Shown: one piece after another, positions 7,082 to 15,394 of the stretch
Numbering within the stretch: position 1 is the stretch's first letter
Layout: each line of letters starts with the position of its first letter
Assembly (NCBI GenBank): GCA_000416085.1
Contig: KE356579.1
Location: 2,036,656 to 2,053,894 of the forward strand
Direction: 5' to 3'
Source: a halophilic archaeon J07HX64
GTDB lineage: Archaea; Halobacteriota; Halobacteria; Halobacteriales; Haloarculaceae
DNA length: 17,239 nucleotides
Translations under genes and position numbers: made by a program
Notes under the pieces: model-generated
Databases searched by the model: none
Seen by the model: the letters and a program-made list of their open reading frames with translations, nothing else
Told to the model about the DNA's origin: nothing

Positions 7082-7108
7082 ATCTAATCAAAGCGCAGTT
7101 GATGAACG

Positions 7109-8206
7109 ATGCGGATACTGCTCCGGACGGCACTGTGGTCGGCGGCGCTGGTCGCGGCGCTGGTCGGGACTGTGCTCGCGAGCACCACAGTCGGGTCGGT
7201 AAACCTCGATATTGTGACGGTCACCCGGGCGGTGCTCAACACGCTCGCCTACCCGTCGGGGGTGGGGCTGGAATCGGGTCAGTTCGGTTTCGGTGAGCGT
7301 GTTGTCCAGGTGCCGGTGCCGGATGTTTCCTACACCCGACCGTTCGGGTTCGAGGTTGCCGAGACCGACCAGATAATCGTCCAGCGGATACGGCTGCCTC
7401 GGATCGCGCTCGGTGCGGTCGTCGGATTCGCGCTGGGAGCCGCGGGTGCCGTGATGCAGGGGTTCTTTCGGAACCCGATGGCGGACCCCTCGATAATCGG
7501 GGTCTCCTCCGGTGCGGCGGTCGGTGCGGTCGCCACGATAGCCTTCCCGGTCGCGATGCCGTTCGGACTCCAGACCGCCGCGTTCCTCGGTGCGGTGCTC
7601 TCCGCGTTCGGGGTGTACTTCATCGCCACCGAGGACGGCCGGACCCCGGTCGCGACGCTGTTGCTCGCCGGACTCGCGGTCCAGACGTTTCTCGGGGCTG
7701 TTGTCTCCTTTCTCCTCCTGCGGTCCGGCGAGGGGCTCGAGGAGGCTATCCTCTGGCTGATGGGAACCCTGCGCTACAGCAACTGGGGCGATGTCGAGGC
7801 GACCCTGCCGCTCGCTGTCCTGTTCTTTGTCGTCCTGCTCGCGTACGCCCGCGACCTGAACGTCATGCTGCTCGGTGAGGAGGAGGCGCTCGCGCTCGGT
7901 ATCGAGGTCGAGCGGACCAAACGACTGTTGCTCGTGGCCTCGGCGCTCATCACCGCCGCCGCTGTTGCCGTGGCGGGCATCATCGGCTTTGTCGGCCTCA
8001 TCATCCCTCACATCATGCGTCTGATTGTCGGTCCCGACCACCGGATTCTCGTCCCCACCAGCGCGCTCGCCGGGGCGACGTTCCTCGTGCTCGCGGATAC
8101 GGTTGCCCGGGCGGGCACCGCCATGCCCGTCGGCATCGTCACCGCCGCTGTCGGCGCGCCCTTTTTCCTGTTCCTGCTCCGCCGACGAGAGGTGCACGCG
8201 CTGTGA
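7109..8206 (+). CDS. btuC: Cobalamin/siderophore ABC importer permease (FecCD family)
   Basis: A 365-residue multi-helix membrane protein of the BtuC/FecCD type II importer permease family. Hydrophobic segments run through the whole length, from residue 7 to about 357, consistent with about ten helices. Family signatures include RLPRIALGAVVGFALGAAG (95-113), the conserved QGFFRNPMADPSIIGVSSGA stretch (117-136) and the coupling loop around EEEALALGIEVERTKR (257-272), which contacts the ATPase. After this come GIIGFVGLIIPHIMRL (290-305) and the C-terminal helices. A soluble insertion at about 50-90 (Gly/Phe/Val rich, between the first and second helices) is typical of haloarchaeal members. The ATG start lies about 31 bases after the shared TATA core. 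Its last four bases overlap the btuD start (GTGA), so the two proteins are probably translationally coupled. Confidence 0.94.
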   Translation: MRILLRTALWSAALVAALVGTVLASTTVGSVNLDIVTVTRAVLNTLAYPSGVGLESGQFGFGERVVQVPVPDVSYTRPFGFEVAETDQIIVQRIRLPRIALGAVVGFALGAAGAVMQGFFRNPMADPSIIGVSSGAAVGAVATIAFPVAMPFGLQTAAFLGAVLSAFGVYFIATEDGRTPVATLLLAGLAVQTFLGAVVSFLLLRSGEGLEEAILWLMGTLRYSNWGDVEATLPLAVLFFVVLLAYARDLNVMLLGEEEALALGIEVERTKRLLLVASALITAAAVAVAGIIGFVGLIIPHIMRLIVGPDHRILVPTSALAGATFLVLADTVARAGTAMPVGIVTAAVGAPFFLFLLRRREVHAL

Positions 8207-9398: not shown

Positions 9399-9818
9399 CT
9401 ATGCCAGTTCGATATCGTCTATCTCGTGGTGTCGCTTCGCCAGACTGCGAGCGGTCTCGATGTTCTGCCCGCCGGCCCCGATCGCCACGCCGCGGTCGTT
9501 CTCGTCGACCTCGGCGTAGGCGACCGTCTCCTCTCCCTCGCTTATCGTGACGTTGTACACCGCGGCAGGTGCGAGCGTGTTCGCGACAAACGCCTCCGGT
9601 CGGTCTGCGTCCTCGACGAGTGTCACCTGCGAGCCCAGTCGCCGCTCGATGCGTTTCACGTGCTCGCCGCCGGGACCGATCGCCTGCCCCATCTCGCCGG
9701 CACCGACCAGCACCACCACACGGTCATCGTCGACGAGGCAGTCCCGGACGGTCACGTCTGTCTCCTCCTCGACCAGGCCCGCGACCCGGAGCGCATCCCC
9801 CGAGAGCGTCACCCGCAT
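9399..9818 (-). CDS. nusA: Archaeal NusA-like transcription factor (two KH domains)
   Basis: A 139-residue RNA-binding protein consisting almost only of two KH domains. Their GxxG loops are seen as IGPGGEHV (47-54) and IGAGGQNI (113-120). Archaeal NusA lacks the N-terminal polymerase-binding and S1 domains of the bacterial protein, so this is full length. It is expected to bind nascent RNA and influence elongation or termination. The start codon overlaps the rpoA'' stop (TGATG), placing it as the last gene of the rpo operon seen here. In many archaea rpsL and rpsG follow; here the convergent btuD follows instead. Confidence 0.93.
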   Translation of the reverse strand: MRVTLSGDALRVAGLVEEETDVTVRDCLVDDDRVVVLVGAGEMGQAIGPGGEHVKRIERRLGSQVTLVEDADRPEAFVANTLAPAAVYNVTISEGEETVAYAEVDENDRGVAIGAGGQNIETARSLAKRHHEIDDIELA

Positions 9819-12472
9819 CAGTCGGAGGGCTCGCCCGGACTCATCCGCAGGTCCACGTCACCCGTCCCGAGTTTGATCGGCTTCCCGACGATGACGTTCT
9901 CTGTCACACCGTCGAGCTGGTCGATCTCGCCGTGGATCGCCGCGTCGAGCAGGTGACTCACTGTCACCTCGAACGCCGCCCGCGCCAGTACCGAGTCCTT
10001 TGCACCCGAGATGCCGTGTCGACCGATCGACTCTATCTCGCCCTGGTTCGTCATTATGTCCGCCACCAGCATCAGGTGGCGGATGTTCACGTCACCGAGT
10101 CCCTGCTCCTCGAGTGTGTTCATCGTCTCCTCGATGATGGACTCACGCGCCGCCTCGATACCCAGTTCACTGTGTATCTCGTGGATGTTGTTGCAGGTCG
10201 TCCGGGAGGCGTCGACCCCCTCGATCTCGAGGGCCGTCCCGAAGTCTGACCCCTCTGTGTAGAGGACGAACTCCTCGCCGTCGTCCAGGTCTTCCTTTCG
10301 AATGACCACCCGCGAGATATCCTCGATACCCTTGAACACTATCTCTCGAAGCTCCTCGACGAGCTGGAGCAGATCCCGGTAGGAGGGCTCCTCCGGACCG
10401 AACTCGATGTCCAACTCGTTCTGCTTTGCCTCAACACCGAGCGATGACTCGATCGTGTCCGCGATCTCCTCGGCCACCTCGATCGGGTCCGCGACAGTCG
10501 GCCACCGTTCGCGCAGTGTGTCCTCGTTGAGCGACACCTGTACCAGCATATCGGCCACGTTCGTCGAGACATCACCCAACTGGAGGATCCGTGTTGCCTC
10601 GATGTTCCAGACAACCTCGTGTGCCCGGTCACGGTCCGTCGCGTACTCCTCGTCGAGGTAGACCGTCATCATCGGCGTGTCGGGCTCCTTTCGCGCGTCC
10701 ACCAGCTCGATCAGCCGAGGCAACCCCTGCGTGACGTCGATCTCCGCGACACCCGCGTAGTGGAAAGTGTTCATCGTATTGTGTGTGACGACACCCTCCG
10801 CCGTCGTGAACGTCTCCAGTCCCTCGACCGAGAGGTCGTAGACGAACTCGTGACGGGGCGCGACGGACTCGATAGAGGCGATCCGGTCCCAGACGACATC
10901 ACCCTCGACTGCCTGGGAGAGCGCCTCGAACGCCTCACGATGAGCGTCTACCTGTCCATCCATCTCCTCCAGAAGGCGTGAGAGTCGGTTTCGACCGATA
11001 CGCTGGCGCCTGTGTGCGGCGTTGACCGTACGGGAGGGGATCCCTGCCTCGCTCGCAACGGATCTCAGAGCGGTGCCGAAGTTCGGAATCTGGTCGGTTG
11101 CGTCCGGCCCATCCGGGTCGATTGCTGCCGCCGTCTCGGCCAGTGTTTCGCCGCGCTCGCCGACCATACCGACACGTTCGTGGAACCGGCTCACGTGCTT
11201 GCTCGGAATCCGCAGCGTGTGCAGACTCTGCTGTTCGCCTCTCGTCGCGTAGACTCCGACCCGGGCGAGCAGCAGTGTGATATCCTCTGTCAACTGCTTC
11301 GACGTCGAACCCGCGCGGACTGCGTTTGTCGTGACATTCCCATCGCCGCTGAAGTACCCTGACAGCAGTCCACGAACGAACGTCTCGTTTGCACCGAACG
11401 CGACGCCCGGAACAGTCTTCTCACCTCCCTCGAAACAGACACGACGAAGAAGGTCAGCCAGAACAGTTCCGTTGAGTCGAATATCGTATCCGGTGGCGAA
11501 GCCACTCGTGTTCTCGTACTCGTTGACGGTAAACCCGAACCGGTCGGCAAACGCACGAATTCGGTGCTGGAACTCGTCGTCGACGTTCGAGACCGAGATG
11601 TAGTGCTCTGTCAGAGAGCCCTCTGCGAGGAACGCCCCGATAAAGAACCCGGTCTGTTCGTCGAGCGGGAGCCGTTCCGGAAGCGAAATTGTTCCACCGC
11701 GGGGGTAGACAGCGTGCTGTTCGAGGTCTCCTGCCTCGAGCGCCTGACGCTTGTTGCGAATCTGGTCCGCTCCCCCCGGGCATGTCTCGGCGCCACCGTC
11801 GGTGAGTAGTGAGGTATACCAGTACTCGTCTGCCGGCAGATACTCACGAAGGTCGAGTTCGTCTGCCGTCTCTCCTCCGAACGACGCGACGACTGGTAAC
11901 CACCGGCCCTCTGATAGCTCCTCACCGGCGACCGGGACAACCTCGTTATCCGTGCGGGTGACAAACGAGTGTGATTTTGTCGCCCGTATGCTGCGGCCGG
12001 ACTCGAGTTCGATCTCGAGGACCTCTTCGGGAGCCTCGTGTCTGCTGATCTCCTCGAGGGGTTTCCACGCGACCTGCTCGTCGGCACGGAGCGAGAGCAC
12101 CTCGAACCCGTCTGGGGCGCGCGCCACCTCGTGGTCACCTGTCGTTCGAGACGGCTGGTCTTCGAGCAGTCTGTCGACCAGTGAACCGATCTCTGTCACC
12201 GCCGTCTCGCCGTCCCGTCTGATCAGGACACGCTCGTCGGCCTCGACAGACATCTGGGTACCGGGTTCACCGATACTCTGTGCGCTGACGGTCCCGACAG
12301 GGTCGAGCGGGTCGACACGGGAGTCCTCGTACTCTGCCTTTGTTGCCCGGACAATCTGCTCTGCCTCCTCGACAGTCGGGTTGCGGTCCTCGAGTGTGCT
12401 GTGCAGCTGTTTTTTGAGACGTCGCGGGAGATCACTCCCCTCGACGGTCGCCTCGATTTTGCTCTGTGTCAT
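9818..12472 (-). CDS. rpoA2: DNA-directed RNA polymerase subunit A'' (Rpo1C) precursor containing an intein
   Basis: An 884-residue precursor. Extein residues 1-74 end in the trigger-loop motif ...SIGEPGTQM, and residues 566-884 resume with [20 protein letters not shown]. The joined 393-residue product has the normal length for archaeal A''. Residues 75-565 are an intein. A'' supplies the trigger loop, part of the cleft and the jaw of the polymerase. By alignment to yeast Rpb1, Gln73, Met567 and His571 correspond to the catalytic trigger-loop residues Gln1078, Leu1081 and His1085, so the insertion splits the catalytic element. The C-terminal part has the usual ...[25 protein letters not shown] block (about 821-845). 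The ATG lies six bases after the rpoA' stop, and the stop overlaps the nusA start by one base. Confidence 0.96.
10778..12250 (-). mobile_element. RpoA'' intein with LAGLIDADG homing endonuclease
   Basis: The in-frame insert of 491 residues runs from Ser75 to Asn565 of the precursor. Splicing motifs are all present. Block A begins [10 protein letters not shown] with Ser as the first residue. Block B has TKSH (Thr165 and His168). Block F has [14 protein letters not shown] (544-557), and block G ends GVVTHN with His564-Asn565, followed by Thr as the +1 extein residue. Two dodecapeptide endonuclease motifs are visible: [10 protein letters not shown] (276-285, acidic Glu284) and [10 protein letters not shown] (369-378, acidic Asp377), with a block D lysine at 352. 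Both acidic residues are kept, so the endonuclease may be active. A region at about 463-505 ([24 protein letters not shown]) looks helix-turn-helix-like and may contact DNA. Inteins at this A'' site are known in other archaea. Confidence 0.95.
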
Positions 12473-12478
12473 CTGTGG

Positions 12479-15394
12479 TTAGTCGTCACTCTGGGCGAGC
12501 CACCAGTCGTCGGCGTGCTCGGAGATGTTGATCGGCTCCTGTTCGTTGCCGAGGAACTGGCTTTTCTCCTGGCCGTTCTCGAACTCGCTGTCGAGCACAC
12601 GGTCGGCGATGCGCTCGACATCGACCGCGGGCTCGGTCTCGCTTGAGGACACCTCCACCGGGGAGGTGCCGTCCTCGCCGAACTCGAACTGGACGACGGT
12701 GTCGCCGGTGTCCCGGACGGTGCCGTCGTACTGTGCCTCGAGTTCGGAGAGCGCGTTTATGAGACGCCGCTGGAGATAGCCCGACTTGGAGGTTCGGACC
12801 GCGGTGTCGACCAGCCCCTCGCGGCCACCCATCGCGTGGAAGAAAAACTCCCGTGGGTCGAGCCCGTCGCGATAGGAGTGGCGCACGAACCCGCGGGCGT
12901 CCGCCGAGAGGTCGTTCTCCTTGAAGTGACTGAGTGTGCGGTCCTCGTAGCCACGGTTGATACGCTCGCCCCTGACGGCCTGTTGACCGACACAGCCGGC
13001 CATCTGGGTCAGGTTGAGCATCGACCCGCGAGCCCCGGACTCCGCCATCACCACCGCAGGGTTGTCGTCGTCGAACTCCTCCTCGGCGATGTCACCCGCG
13101 CTGTCCCGGGCCTGTCCGAGCGTCTGCATTATCTTCATCTCCAGGGTCTCGTCGACTGTCCGGCCCGGTAGCGACTCGAGGTCGCCGCGCTCGTAAGCCT
13201 GGATGAGCTCTTGGACGCGCTCCTCGGCGTTGTCGAGCGCCTCGTCGACCTGGGCCTGTGCCTCCGGCGGCACCGACTCGTCGTCGATGCTGATCGAGAA
13301 CCCAAAGTGCATTATCGTCCGCACCGCGAGCGAAGACACCTCGTTTATGAAGATGCGTGCACGCGTTCGCGAGTAGTCTTTCGCGATTGTGTCGACCACC
13401 TCGCCGCCGAACGCGCCGACGGCGTCCTCGTCGACAGTTCCCTCGAGCAACTGCCCGTCCGTGACGACAACTCTGTCGCCGGCCGAGGATGTGAACTCCA
13501 GATCCAGGCCGTCGGGCAACAGCTCCGAGAACAGCGTCCGCCCGGTCCAGTACGGCTCACCCTCACCGTCCACGGGACCGTCGGGTTCGGGTAACTCGTC
13601 GATGCGTGTCGTCCGCAGCAGGTCGAGCGCCTGTGTCTCGTTGAACTGCGGGTTCTGGTTGGTCAGCAGGTACGTCCCGGTGACGTGGTCCTGGATCGCC
13701 CCGATTATGTTCTCGCCCATCTTCGGGCTGAGCATCTGCTCCTGCACGCGCATCAACGTCCGGGCCTCCGCACGCGCCTCCTCGTTCTGCAGTGCGTGCA
13801 TGTTCATCTCGTCGCCGTCGAAGTCTGCGTTGTACGGCGGGCAGACTGTCGTGTTGAGGCGGAACGTCTTGTACGGCATCACGACAACCTCGTGAGCCAT
13901 TATCGACATCCGGTGCAGCGAGGGCTGGCGATTGAAGATGACGATGTCGCCGTCGATGAGGTGACGGGAGACCTCCCAGCCGGGTTCGACCTTCTCGGAG
14001 AGCTCCTCGCAGTTCTTCTCGGTCACCTTCAGCCGGCGGCCGTCGCCCCGGCGGACGTAGTTCGCGCCGGGGTGTGCCTCGGGCCCGTTGCGGACGTACC
14101 GGCGGGCCTGGTCCAGGTTGCGGCTGTTCACGTTCATCGTCTGTGTCATCTCGGTCGCGACCCGGTCCGGCACACCGACCTCGTTCAGTGAGACTGTCGG
14201 GTCAGGGGAGATGACCGTCCGGGCCGAGAAGTTCACACGCTTGCCGGACAGCGAGCCGCGGAACCGGCCTTCCTTTCCTTTCAGGCGCTGAGACAGCGTC
14301 TTCAGCGGCCGGCCCGAGCGGTGCCGAGCGGGCGGGGTGCCCGATATCTCGTTGTCCATGAACGTCGTGACGTGGTACTGCAGCAGTTCCCAGAGGTCCT
14401 CGATTATCAGCTGTGGGGCACCGGCCTCACGGTTCTCCATGAACCGCTGGTTGATACGGATGATATCGACCAGCTTGTGTGTGAGGTCGTCCTCGGAGCG
14501 CTGGCCGTTGTCGAGCGTAATCGACGGGCGGGCGGTCACCGGCGGCACCGGCAGCACCGTCAGAATCATCCACTCGGGTCGGGAACCGTCCGGGTCGATA
14601 CCGATAGATTCGATGTCGTTGTCGGGGATATGCTCGAACCAGTCCCGGATGTCCGAGGCCATCAGCTTGTTCATGTCCTCCTCGGTCAACTCGACGCCGA
14701 GTGCCGATTCGAGCATCTCTCGGTCGTCGGGCCGCGGACGGAACTCGCCGGAGATTATCTCCCGGATACGCCCGCTGTCGAGTCCGGTCTCCTTTGCGAG
14801 GTCTGTCGGTGTCACACGGGCGGAGTCCTCGTCGGGTTCCATCGCACCCGCGATGCGGGCGGGGTAGTCCGAGGCGAGCACGTCCTGAACCTCGTAGTAG
14901 GTTGTCGGTTTCTCGTGCTGGATGTCGAACTGCTCCTCGCCACAGTGCGGACAGCGGTCCTTCTTGCGGGCCTGCCGGATCGCGGACTTCGTCACGTCGT
15001 CGACATCACGACCGAGATTCCGGGTCCGGTCCAGATTGTCCCGAAACTCGGACTGTTCGTTCTCGGTGAGCAGAACACGGCTGCACTCCCGGCAGGTACC
15101 CCGGAGGAGTCGCCGGATGAGTTTGGCGAACCCCACGTGGATAACCGGCGCCGCGAGTTCGATGTGTCCAAAGTGGCCGTTGCACGAACCGGAGTGTTTG
15201 CCGCACGTCTTACACTCCAGTCCGGGGTCTATAACGCCGAGTCGCGGGTCCATCAGCCCCATGTCGATGGGGAACCCGTCGTCGTCGTACGTGTCGGCCG
15301 TGATGACCTTCGTCGCCGAGATATCCCGGTAGGATTCGGGGTCCATCAGGCCGAAGTCGATCCGTTCGAGATCCTGTGGTGTGTCGAGTGCCAT
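12479..15394 (-). CDS. rpoA1: DNA-directed RNA polymerase subunit A' (Rpo1N)
   Basis: A 971-residue protein, full length for haloarchaeal A'. It carries the N-terminal zinc sites Cys61, Cys64, Cys71 and His74, and Cys101, Cys104, Cys148 and Cys151. It also has GKEGRFRGSLSGKRVNFSAR (373-392), the NRQPSLHRMSIMAHEV segment (488-503), the catalytic metal motif NADFDGDEM (522-530, with Asp524, 526 and 528) and the bridge-helix region DPREFFFHAMGGREGLVDTA (846-865). It pairs with A'' to form the largest-subunit equivalent and carries the active-site magnesium. Unlike A'' it has no intein. The C-terminus has an acidic stretch (about 906-925). It starts two bases after the rpoB' stop and ends six bases before rpoA''. 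Confidence 0.97.
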   Translation of the reverse strand: MALDTPQDLERIDFGLMDPESYRDISATKVITADTYDDDGFPIDMGLMDPRLGVIDPGLECKTCGKHSGSCNGHFGHIELAAPVIHVGFAKLIRRLLRGTCRECSRVLLTENEQSEFRDNLDRTRNLGRDVDDVTKSAIRQARKKDRCPHCGEEQFDIQHEKPTTYYEVQDVLASDYPARIAGAMEPDEDSARVTPTDLAKETGLDSGRIREIISGEFRPRPDDREMLESALGVELTEEDMNKLMASDIRDWFEHIPDNDIESIGIDPDGSRPEWMILTVLPVPPVTARPSITLDNGQRSEDDLTHKLVDIIRINQRFMENREAGAPQLIIEDLWELLQYHVTTFMDNEISGTPPARHRSGRPLKTLSQRLKGKEGRFRGSLSGKRVNFSARTVISPDPTVSLNEVGVPDRVATEMTQTMNVNSRNLDQARRYVRNGPEAHPGANYVRRGDGRRLKVTEKNCEELSEKVEPGWEVSRHLIDGDIVIFNRQPSLHRMSIMAHEVVVMPYKTFRLNTTVCPPYNADFDGDEMNMHALQNEEARAEARTLMRVQEQMLSPKMGENIIGAIQDHVTGTYLLTNQNPQFNETQALDLLRTTRIDELPEPDGPVDGEGEPYWTGRTLFSELLPDGLDLEFTSSAGDRVVVTDGQLLEGTVDEDAVGAFGGEVVDTIAKDYSRTRARIFINEVSSLAVRTIMHFGFSISIDDESVPPEAQAQVDEALDNAEERVQELIQAYERGDLESLPGRTVDETLEMKIMQTLGQARDSAGDIAEEEFDDDNPAVVMAESGARGSMLNLTQMAGCVGQQAVRGERINRGYEDRTLSHFKENDLSADARGFVRHSYRDGLDPREFFFHAMGGREGLVDTAVRTSKSGYLQRRLINALSELEAQYDGTVRDTGDTVVQFEFGEDGTSPVEVSSSETEPAVDVERIADRVLDSEFENGQEKSQFLGNEQEPINISEHADDWWLAQSDD

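Follow-up and report, generated by a model that had tools for sequence, protein, structure and literature searches.

The stretch of DNA analysed here, in the following called the window, comprises 17,239 nucleotides of the halophilic archaeon J07HX64 (contig KE356579.1, positions 2,036,656 to 2,053,894) and contains rpoA2, the gene for RNA polymerase subunit A''. The trigger loop encoded by this gene is interrupted by a predicted intein of 491 residues. We conclude, with a probability of roughly 0.86, that this is a mobile class 1 intein of the rpolA'' allele, which resides in a conserved site as a passenger that must splice and not as a regulator. Nothing in this analysis indicates that the cell uses the intein as a switch.

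Architecture of the intein

The A'' open reading frame (ORF) has 884 codons, whereas open frames of 396-517 codons are seen in the empty A'' genes of haloarchaea that were examined. Pfam detects Intein_splicing (65.1 bits) and LAGLIDADG_3 (68.4 bits) in the protein, and NCBIfam detects intein_Nterm, intein_Cterm and a model of the whole precursor, NF011491 (1273.9 bits), which pairs residues 5-878 with profile positions 5-849 of 860. These scores exclude chance. A previous inspection of the letters, referred to as the sequence-only reading, had placed an intein between Met74 and Thr566 with the flanks GEPGTQM/TMNTFH, and the ORF, the Pfam and NCBIfam matches and the junction letters all confirm this.

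Judged by its residues and its modelled structure, the insert belongs to the canonical class 1 inteins and carries a LAGLIDADG homing endonuclease. Ser1, T91KSH94, His490, Asn491 and a threonine at +1 are present, and S1, T91, H94, H490 and N491 are each conserved in at least 90% of every one of three sets, 44 full-length, 20 mini- and 10 non-halobacterial inteins. AlphaFold models the intein with high confidence, and structure matches agree with a Hint fold. The endonuclease shows its fold and two LAGLIDADG motifs with their acidic residues. Among the 44 halobacterial full inteins, 43 carry glutamate at the position of Glu210 and 43 aspartate at that of Asp303; the ten inteins from elsewhere have E in four, D in four and V in two at the former position, and D in five, N in four and K in one at the latter. 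Mini-inteins share a consensus gap within residues 128-445, by which the endonuclease region is lost. Cysteines occur in the window's intein only at 157 and 272, the nucleophiles being Ser1 and Thr+1, and the catalytic cysteine of redox-type conditional splicing is absent; Cys1 is found in 3 of 79 named relatives (L155, L159, L160). The composition is acidic, with 85 D+E against 48 K+R.

Following the known class 1 mechanism, Ser1 would begin splicing by an N-O acyl shift at the Met74-Ser1 bond, Thr566 would attack next, and Asn491 would then cyclise with the assistance of His490. Ligation of Met74 to Thr566 would give a normal trigger loop, and the released intein would be able to cleave rpoA2 genes that lack an insert here and spread into them by copying. 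At the salt and temperature of the host, constitutive splicing is the most likely case.

The insertion site in the trigger loop

A query of 63 residues across the joined exteins aligns by its residues 2-63 to residues 1059-1120 of yeast Rpb1 (1i3q_A), 62 residues on each side; this mapping rests on equal alignment lengths with no net gap, the residue-by-residue print covering archaeal chains only. The junction falls between yeast M1079 and T1080 in the trigger loop, with Gln73 corresponding to Q1078, Met74 to M1079, Thr566 to T1080, Met567 to L1081, Asn568 to N1082 and His571 to H1085. The yeast residues Gln1078, Leu1081 and His1085 are therefore found on both sides of the junction, as had been proposed, with methionine in place of Leu1081. 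The empty A'' genes examined read GEPGTQM-TMNTFH free of gaps, with GEPGTQL in three of family code f3, so that joining of the exteins gives back a normal trigger loop. The comparison with intein-free A'' that could have refuted the sequence-only reading therefore did not refute it.

In yeast, Q1078 contacts the 2'-OH of the nucleoside triphosphate and has been proposed to free M1079 from a hydrophobic pocket, thereby initiating loop closure; L1081M cells survive but grow very poorly (PMC5127505). Q1078A, N1082A, H1085A and L1081I/A/G/F are inviable (PMC3325174). Deletion of the loop in Pyrococcus furiosus slowed incorporation in elongation about 30-fold and abolished initiation (PMC3737540), from which it follows that the loop is dispensable for elongation and required for initiation. 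The sequence-only reading called unspliced A'' catalytically dead. A non-working polymerase is indeed to be expected from the yeast and P. furiosus mutants, but "initiation-dead" is the better founded term: unspliced A'' should at least be unable to initiate, and we infer that, likelier still, it fails to assemble.

When 135 A'' proteins (57 of them empty) are aligned, only 12 of 375 segments of 14 residues exceed the junction segment in conservation, and of the 46 sites where +1 is S, T or C it ranks second. The same point about conserved sites was made for eukaryotic polymerase inteins (Goodwin et al. 2006, PMC1635734) and for inteins generally in a 2009 study (PMC2814812). With a junction so highly conserved, the trigger-loop position needs no regulatory reason. 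The intein would be found in the trigger loop because the codon is extremely conserved, so that the target is retained from one species to the next and inexact removal of the intein is lethal.

Distribution within Halobacteria

An even draw of 391 Halobacteria genomes was searched at E<=1e-20, a cut that may miss strongly decayed mini-inteins. Matches were obtained in 58 genomes, namely 38 full inteins, 17 mini-inteins and three genomes with a different intein (G282, G294, G391). A DNA pattern of the empty site with methionine was present in 230 of the 391 and in none of the 55 occupied genomes. The remaining 106 consist of 99 genomes of family code f3, six of genus code g41 and one (G349) whose A'' is cut by a contig end. 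In the window's own genus, three genomes are occupied (G000, G070, G080), four are empty (G018, G034, G046, G058) and one is undecided (G090). Distinct halobacterial inteins number 44 full (468-496 residues) and 20 mini (198-215 residues, without endonuclease); the window's intein is 55-72% identical to its full-length relatives of the class. An apparent duplication of A'' in Halorubrum sp. CBA1125 (P0085, P0086) was rejected, as it is one protein with two starts.

The -1 position, equivalent to yeast M1079, is leucine in 25 of 26 f3 genomes and in all six g41 genomes examined (L068, L074, L075, L279-L307), one f3 genome (G398) having methionine and an empty site; of the 105 f3 and g41 genomes without the methionine pattern, 31 were examined by letters, and all 31 have leucine and an empty site. 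Occupancy is 0/105 for genomes with neither Met pattern nor intein versus 55/285 with methionine, the 105 having been selected partly for absence of the intein. Put fairly, no occupied genome has leucine at -1, and no examined leucine genome is occupied. Protection by leucine is a lead only, because it concerns two lineages and because the methionine families f6, f8, f9, f10 and f11 likewise have no occupied genome in this draw.

Distribution beyond Halobacteria

A search with the C-extein found A'' in 147 of 148 genomes of the phylum. Of the 124 genomes outside Halobacteria, 123 have A''; 11 long frames there contain inserts, all at the same codon; both junctions were examined in ten and the C junction only in L089. 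Four frames of 539-570 codons were examined and are empty, and frames below about 500 codons were counted as empty by length, mostly not by letters. Among the best 120 of 6820 protein matches to a C-extein query, a search not biased toward any intein, 33 have an insert, all at one codon, 87 are empty, and none has an intein elsewhere in A''. The common junction recurs in 120 of the 120 matches listed by a protein search, the window's protein included.

When GTDB species were scanned with an allele alignment, 211 relatives were found. The best 80 of these are all A'' proteins with TQM ahead of the intein, and 79 show the HN/T end, L123 being cut and seen on the N side only. By NCBI names the 79 comprise Halobacteria (26), Aenigmatarchaeota (15), Woesearchaeota (14), Microcaldota (Micrarchaeota; 5), Archaeoglobi (4), Methanomicrobia (3), one each of Methanoliparia, Nanobdellota and Heimdallarchaeota, and nine without class or phylum. 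Nine proteins near an Archaeoglobaceae query (C-extein 77-86%; one named Archaeoglobales) have inserts of 252-357 residues without an endonuclease Pfam domain. None of the 80 kept of 85 relatives on viral contigs has the A'' junction; their identity is at most 39%, mostly over short parts. The allele beyond Halobacteria was not found in the literature searched, and a large survey of bacterial and archaeal inteins cited in PMC5784728 may already cover its spread.

As a separate observation, six Aenigmatarchaeota (L141, L143, L146, L148, L149, L155) have the loop TMR[ST]YT[LM], in which the catalytic histidine (yeast H1085) is replaced by threonine, with the intein at the same codon. Each of these genomes, of unstated completeness, gives a single A'' match and may have a second copy. 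A polymerase without the trigger-loop histidine would be unusual.

Trees, divergence and selection

Trees were built of inteins (67 rows) and exteins (65 rows, L135 and L150 being excluded for short C-exteins), with Halobacteria thinned to alternate named rows plus the window. On the extein tree Aenigmatarchaeota and Microcaldota each lie on one side of a branch (99 and 100, both starred). On the intein tree Aenigmatarchaeota need four changes, three of them forced, and Microcaldota two, both forced. An Aenigmatarchaeota subgroup there falls among Woesearchaeota, Micrarchaeote L133 with methanogens and Woesearchaeote L163 with Heimdallarchaeota, all on starred branches. Over all groups the intein tree requires 17 label changes and the extein tree 12, with a possible minimum of 10. 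Shuffling raises the 17 to 43.8, so that groups cluster strongly. The full or mini state changes at least five times on the splicing-domain tree (starred branches force two) and 14 times on the host-gene tree.

The ratio of intein to C-extein synonymous divergence (dS) is 1.02 to 4.01 in 28 pairs of genus code g26, and 1.22, 0.56, 1.70 and 0.12 in four other pairs. The lowest value belongs to two mini-inteins of genus code g4 (L033, L034; intein dS 0.04, C-extein dS 0.33), and here a mini-intein lacking the endonuclease seems to have moved between species. Ratios of nonsynonymous to synonymous divergence (dN/dS) in the 25 closest equal-length pairs listed are 0.10-0.19 for the endonuclease and 0.10-0.20 for the splicing domain, both indicating purifying selection, and 0.01-0.32 for the first 150 C-extein codons. 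Such a pattern is as expected of an element whose homing continues or ended only recently.

The locus and the host genome

The archaeal polymerase cluster, with rpoB (C-part), rpoA1, rpoA2 and a NusA-like gene, lies on the minus strand of the window (Table 1).

Table 1. Features of the polymerase cluster and of the A'' intein, in window positions
Feature	Position	Strand	Basis
rpolA'' intein, 491 aa, Ser1 to Asn491, A'' residues 75-565	10778..12250	-	Pfam/NCBIfam, junctions, AlphaFold model
N-terminal Hint (splicing) half, intein residues 1-126	11873..12250	-	intein_Nterm; 1-127 kept in mini-inteins; structure matches
Block B TKSH, intein residues 91-94	11969..11980	-	conservation in aligned inteins
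LAGLIDADG homing endonuclease domain, about residues 193-380	11111..11674	-	LAGLIDADG_3; I-DmoI structure alignment 193-376; within part absent from mini-inteins
LAGLIDADG motif 1, acidic Glu210	11612..11650	-	
LAGLIDADG motif 2, acidic Asp303	11333..11380	-	
C-terminal Hint half, residues 445-491, terminal VVTHN	10778..10918	-	intein_Cterm; conserved in full and mini-inteins
rpoA2/A'' ORF, 884 aa	12472..9818	-	
N-extein of A'', residues 1-74, last letters GEPGTQM	12251..12472	-	ORF; NF011491; PDB alignment
C-extein of A'', Thr566 to stop, first letters TMNTFH	9818..10777	-	RNA_pol_Rpb1_5 (Pfam), TIGR02389 (NCBIfam), PDB alignments
rpoB, C-part	17223-15397	-	
rpoA1	15394-12479	-	
NusA-like gene	9818-9399	-	

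The host genome consists of one contig, for which markers give 72% completeness, and has 23 Pfam splicing-domain matches. Besides A'', its intein hosts are B12-dependent ribonucleotide reductase, MCM, ATP synthase A, DNA polymerase II large subunit, dCTP deaminase, UDP-glucose dehydrogenase, an RtcB-like protein, DNA polymerase B and one unnamed protein. Seven of the ten hosts appear in the halobacterial list of Soucy et al. 2014, the exceptions being ATP synthase A, the RtcB-like protein and the unnamed protein. A genome so rich in inteins also fits an ordinary mobile element.

The intein-bearing MCM (L311, own genome 723500-730500) is spread over two overlapping frames of 1395 and 512 aa, by a frameshift or a sequence error. 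At L310:1859-4510 (+) lies an intein-bearing ORF of 884 aa that, at E<=1e-20, matches a single NCBIfam model, that of the intein-bearing A'', and does so over its insert part. Subunit A' (window 12479-15394, minus strand) has 971 aa compared with 883 positions of its NCBIfam model; its residues 140-243 match TIGR00270, the model of archaeal bridging factor aMBF1 (E 4.6e-05; score 23.3 bits, cut-off 110), which hints at a helix-turn-helix insert. An ORF of 369 aa at window 7088-8197 (-) has no NCBIfam match at E<=0.001 and faces one of similar length on the opposite strand (7109-8206, +), so that either strand may be coding.

Alternative explanations

The sequence-only reading saw in the junction a candidate post-translational control point, at which salt, temperature or redox would slow the splicing of A'' and so meter active RNA polymerase. 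The insertion position does make splicing essential to polymerase function (PMC3737540, PMC3325174), reviews report salt-activated splicing in some halophile inteins (PMC10663303, PMC7765530), with Reitter 2016 and Ciragan 2016 as the primary papers, and the intein is acidic. However, halophile proteins in general can be expected to need salt. Known redox-controlled inteins act through a catalytic cysteine, a route that is closed where Ser1 and Thr+1 are the nucleophiles. Moreover, the catalytic residues are canonical, four genomes of the same genus live with the empty site, the insertion position is that which homing predicts, and trees and dS carry a homing signature. The control point thus found no support, and we consider conditional splicing improbable. 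Still somewhat less credence is due to a wider proposal, in which the trigger loop is a domain-wide refuge for inteins, long kept in several phyla as splicing gates polymerase biogenesis; cells would there gain from the intein a delay in new polymerase or a brake on it that is sensitive to salt, and the lineages with leucine for methionine at -1 would have closed the site.

An early archaeal entry into A'' followed by vertical inheritance, with patchiness by loss only, would account for the one codon shared by Halobacteria, Archaeoglobi, methanogens, DPANN and a Heimdallarchaeote, and for intein groups that mostly track lineages. It conflicts with the starred misplacements of the Aenigmatarchaeota subgroup, L133 and L163 on the intein as compared to the extein tree, and with the unequal divergence of intein and extein, and is very unlikely. 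That the insert splices poorly and A'' is carried as a damaged gene is hardly credible: the incomplete genome, despite its single contig, and the apparently broken MCM frame make damage or sequence error possible, but the 884-codon frame is intact with all catalytic residues, the genome has no second A'' match, and the relatives are under purifying selection.

Several points weigh against the mobile passenger that we favour. Its splicing and cleavage are predictions from sequence. The strong clustering of groups on the intein tree means that much within-group descent may be vertical, and pairs whose dS ratio is close to 1 are compatible with common descent. Extein dS may be depressed by codon bias or by gene conversion around the site, which weakens the dS comparison, and the trees are quick ones with support from the Shimodaira-Hasegawa-like approximate likelihood ratio test (SH-aLRT) only. 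Finally, the persistence of mini-inteins could reflect a benefit, though precise deletion is rare enough to account for it with no benefit at all.

Relation to known inteins

The useful addition of this study is a map: one trigger-loop codon is shared by Halobacteria, Archaeoglobi, methanogens, DPANN groups and a Heimdallarchaeote, in full, mini and empty form and with signs of movement between groups. Empty, full and mini sites in close relatives offer natural comparisons for the question of passenger versus regulator in essential enzymes.

The window's intein is a new member of a published allele, and NCBIfam already models the intein-bearing precursor. It shares with the rpolA allele of Halobacteria (Natronomonas pharaonis Nph rPol A''; NF011491/PRK14898) the host subunit, the insertion codon and homology over the whole intein; it matches the model over nearly its full length, and there is no difference in kind. 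The N. pharaonis "subunit A'' (intein-containing)" (P0102) is 71% identical to the window's protein over 99%, with the same junction, and from it we infer that the rpolA of Soucy et al. denotes this codon. Their survey (PMC4071816) lists rpolA for 10 Halobacteria but for no Bacteria and no other Euryarchaeota, whereas the allele is found here in many more groups. The Mja rPol A'' intein of Methanocaldococcus jannaschii is placed in the same subunit by its name (PMC1635734) and may belong to the same allele. PI-PkoII and other two-domain archaeal inteins (2cw7, 1dq3, TliVMA 7qss) reside in other host genes and are 19-25% identical. The eukaryotic and viral inteins of RPA2, RPB2 and RPC2 described by Goodwin et al. 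likewise occupy conserved sites near the polymerase active site, but unlike the A'' intein they lie in the second-largest subunit, outside the trigger loop.
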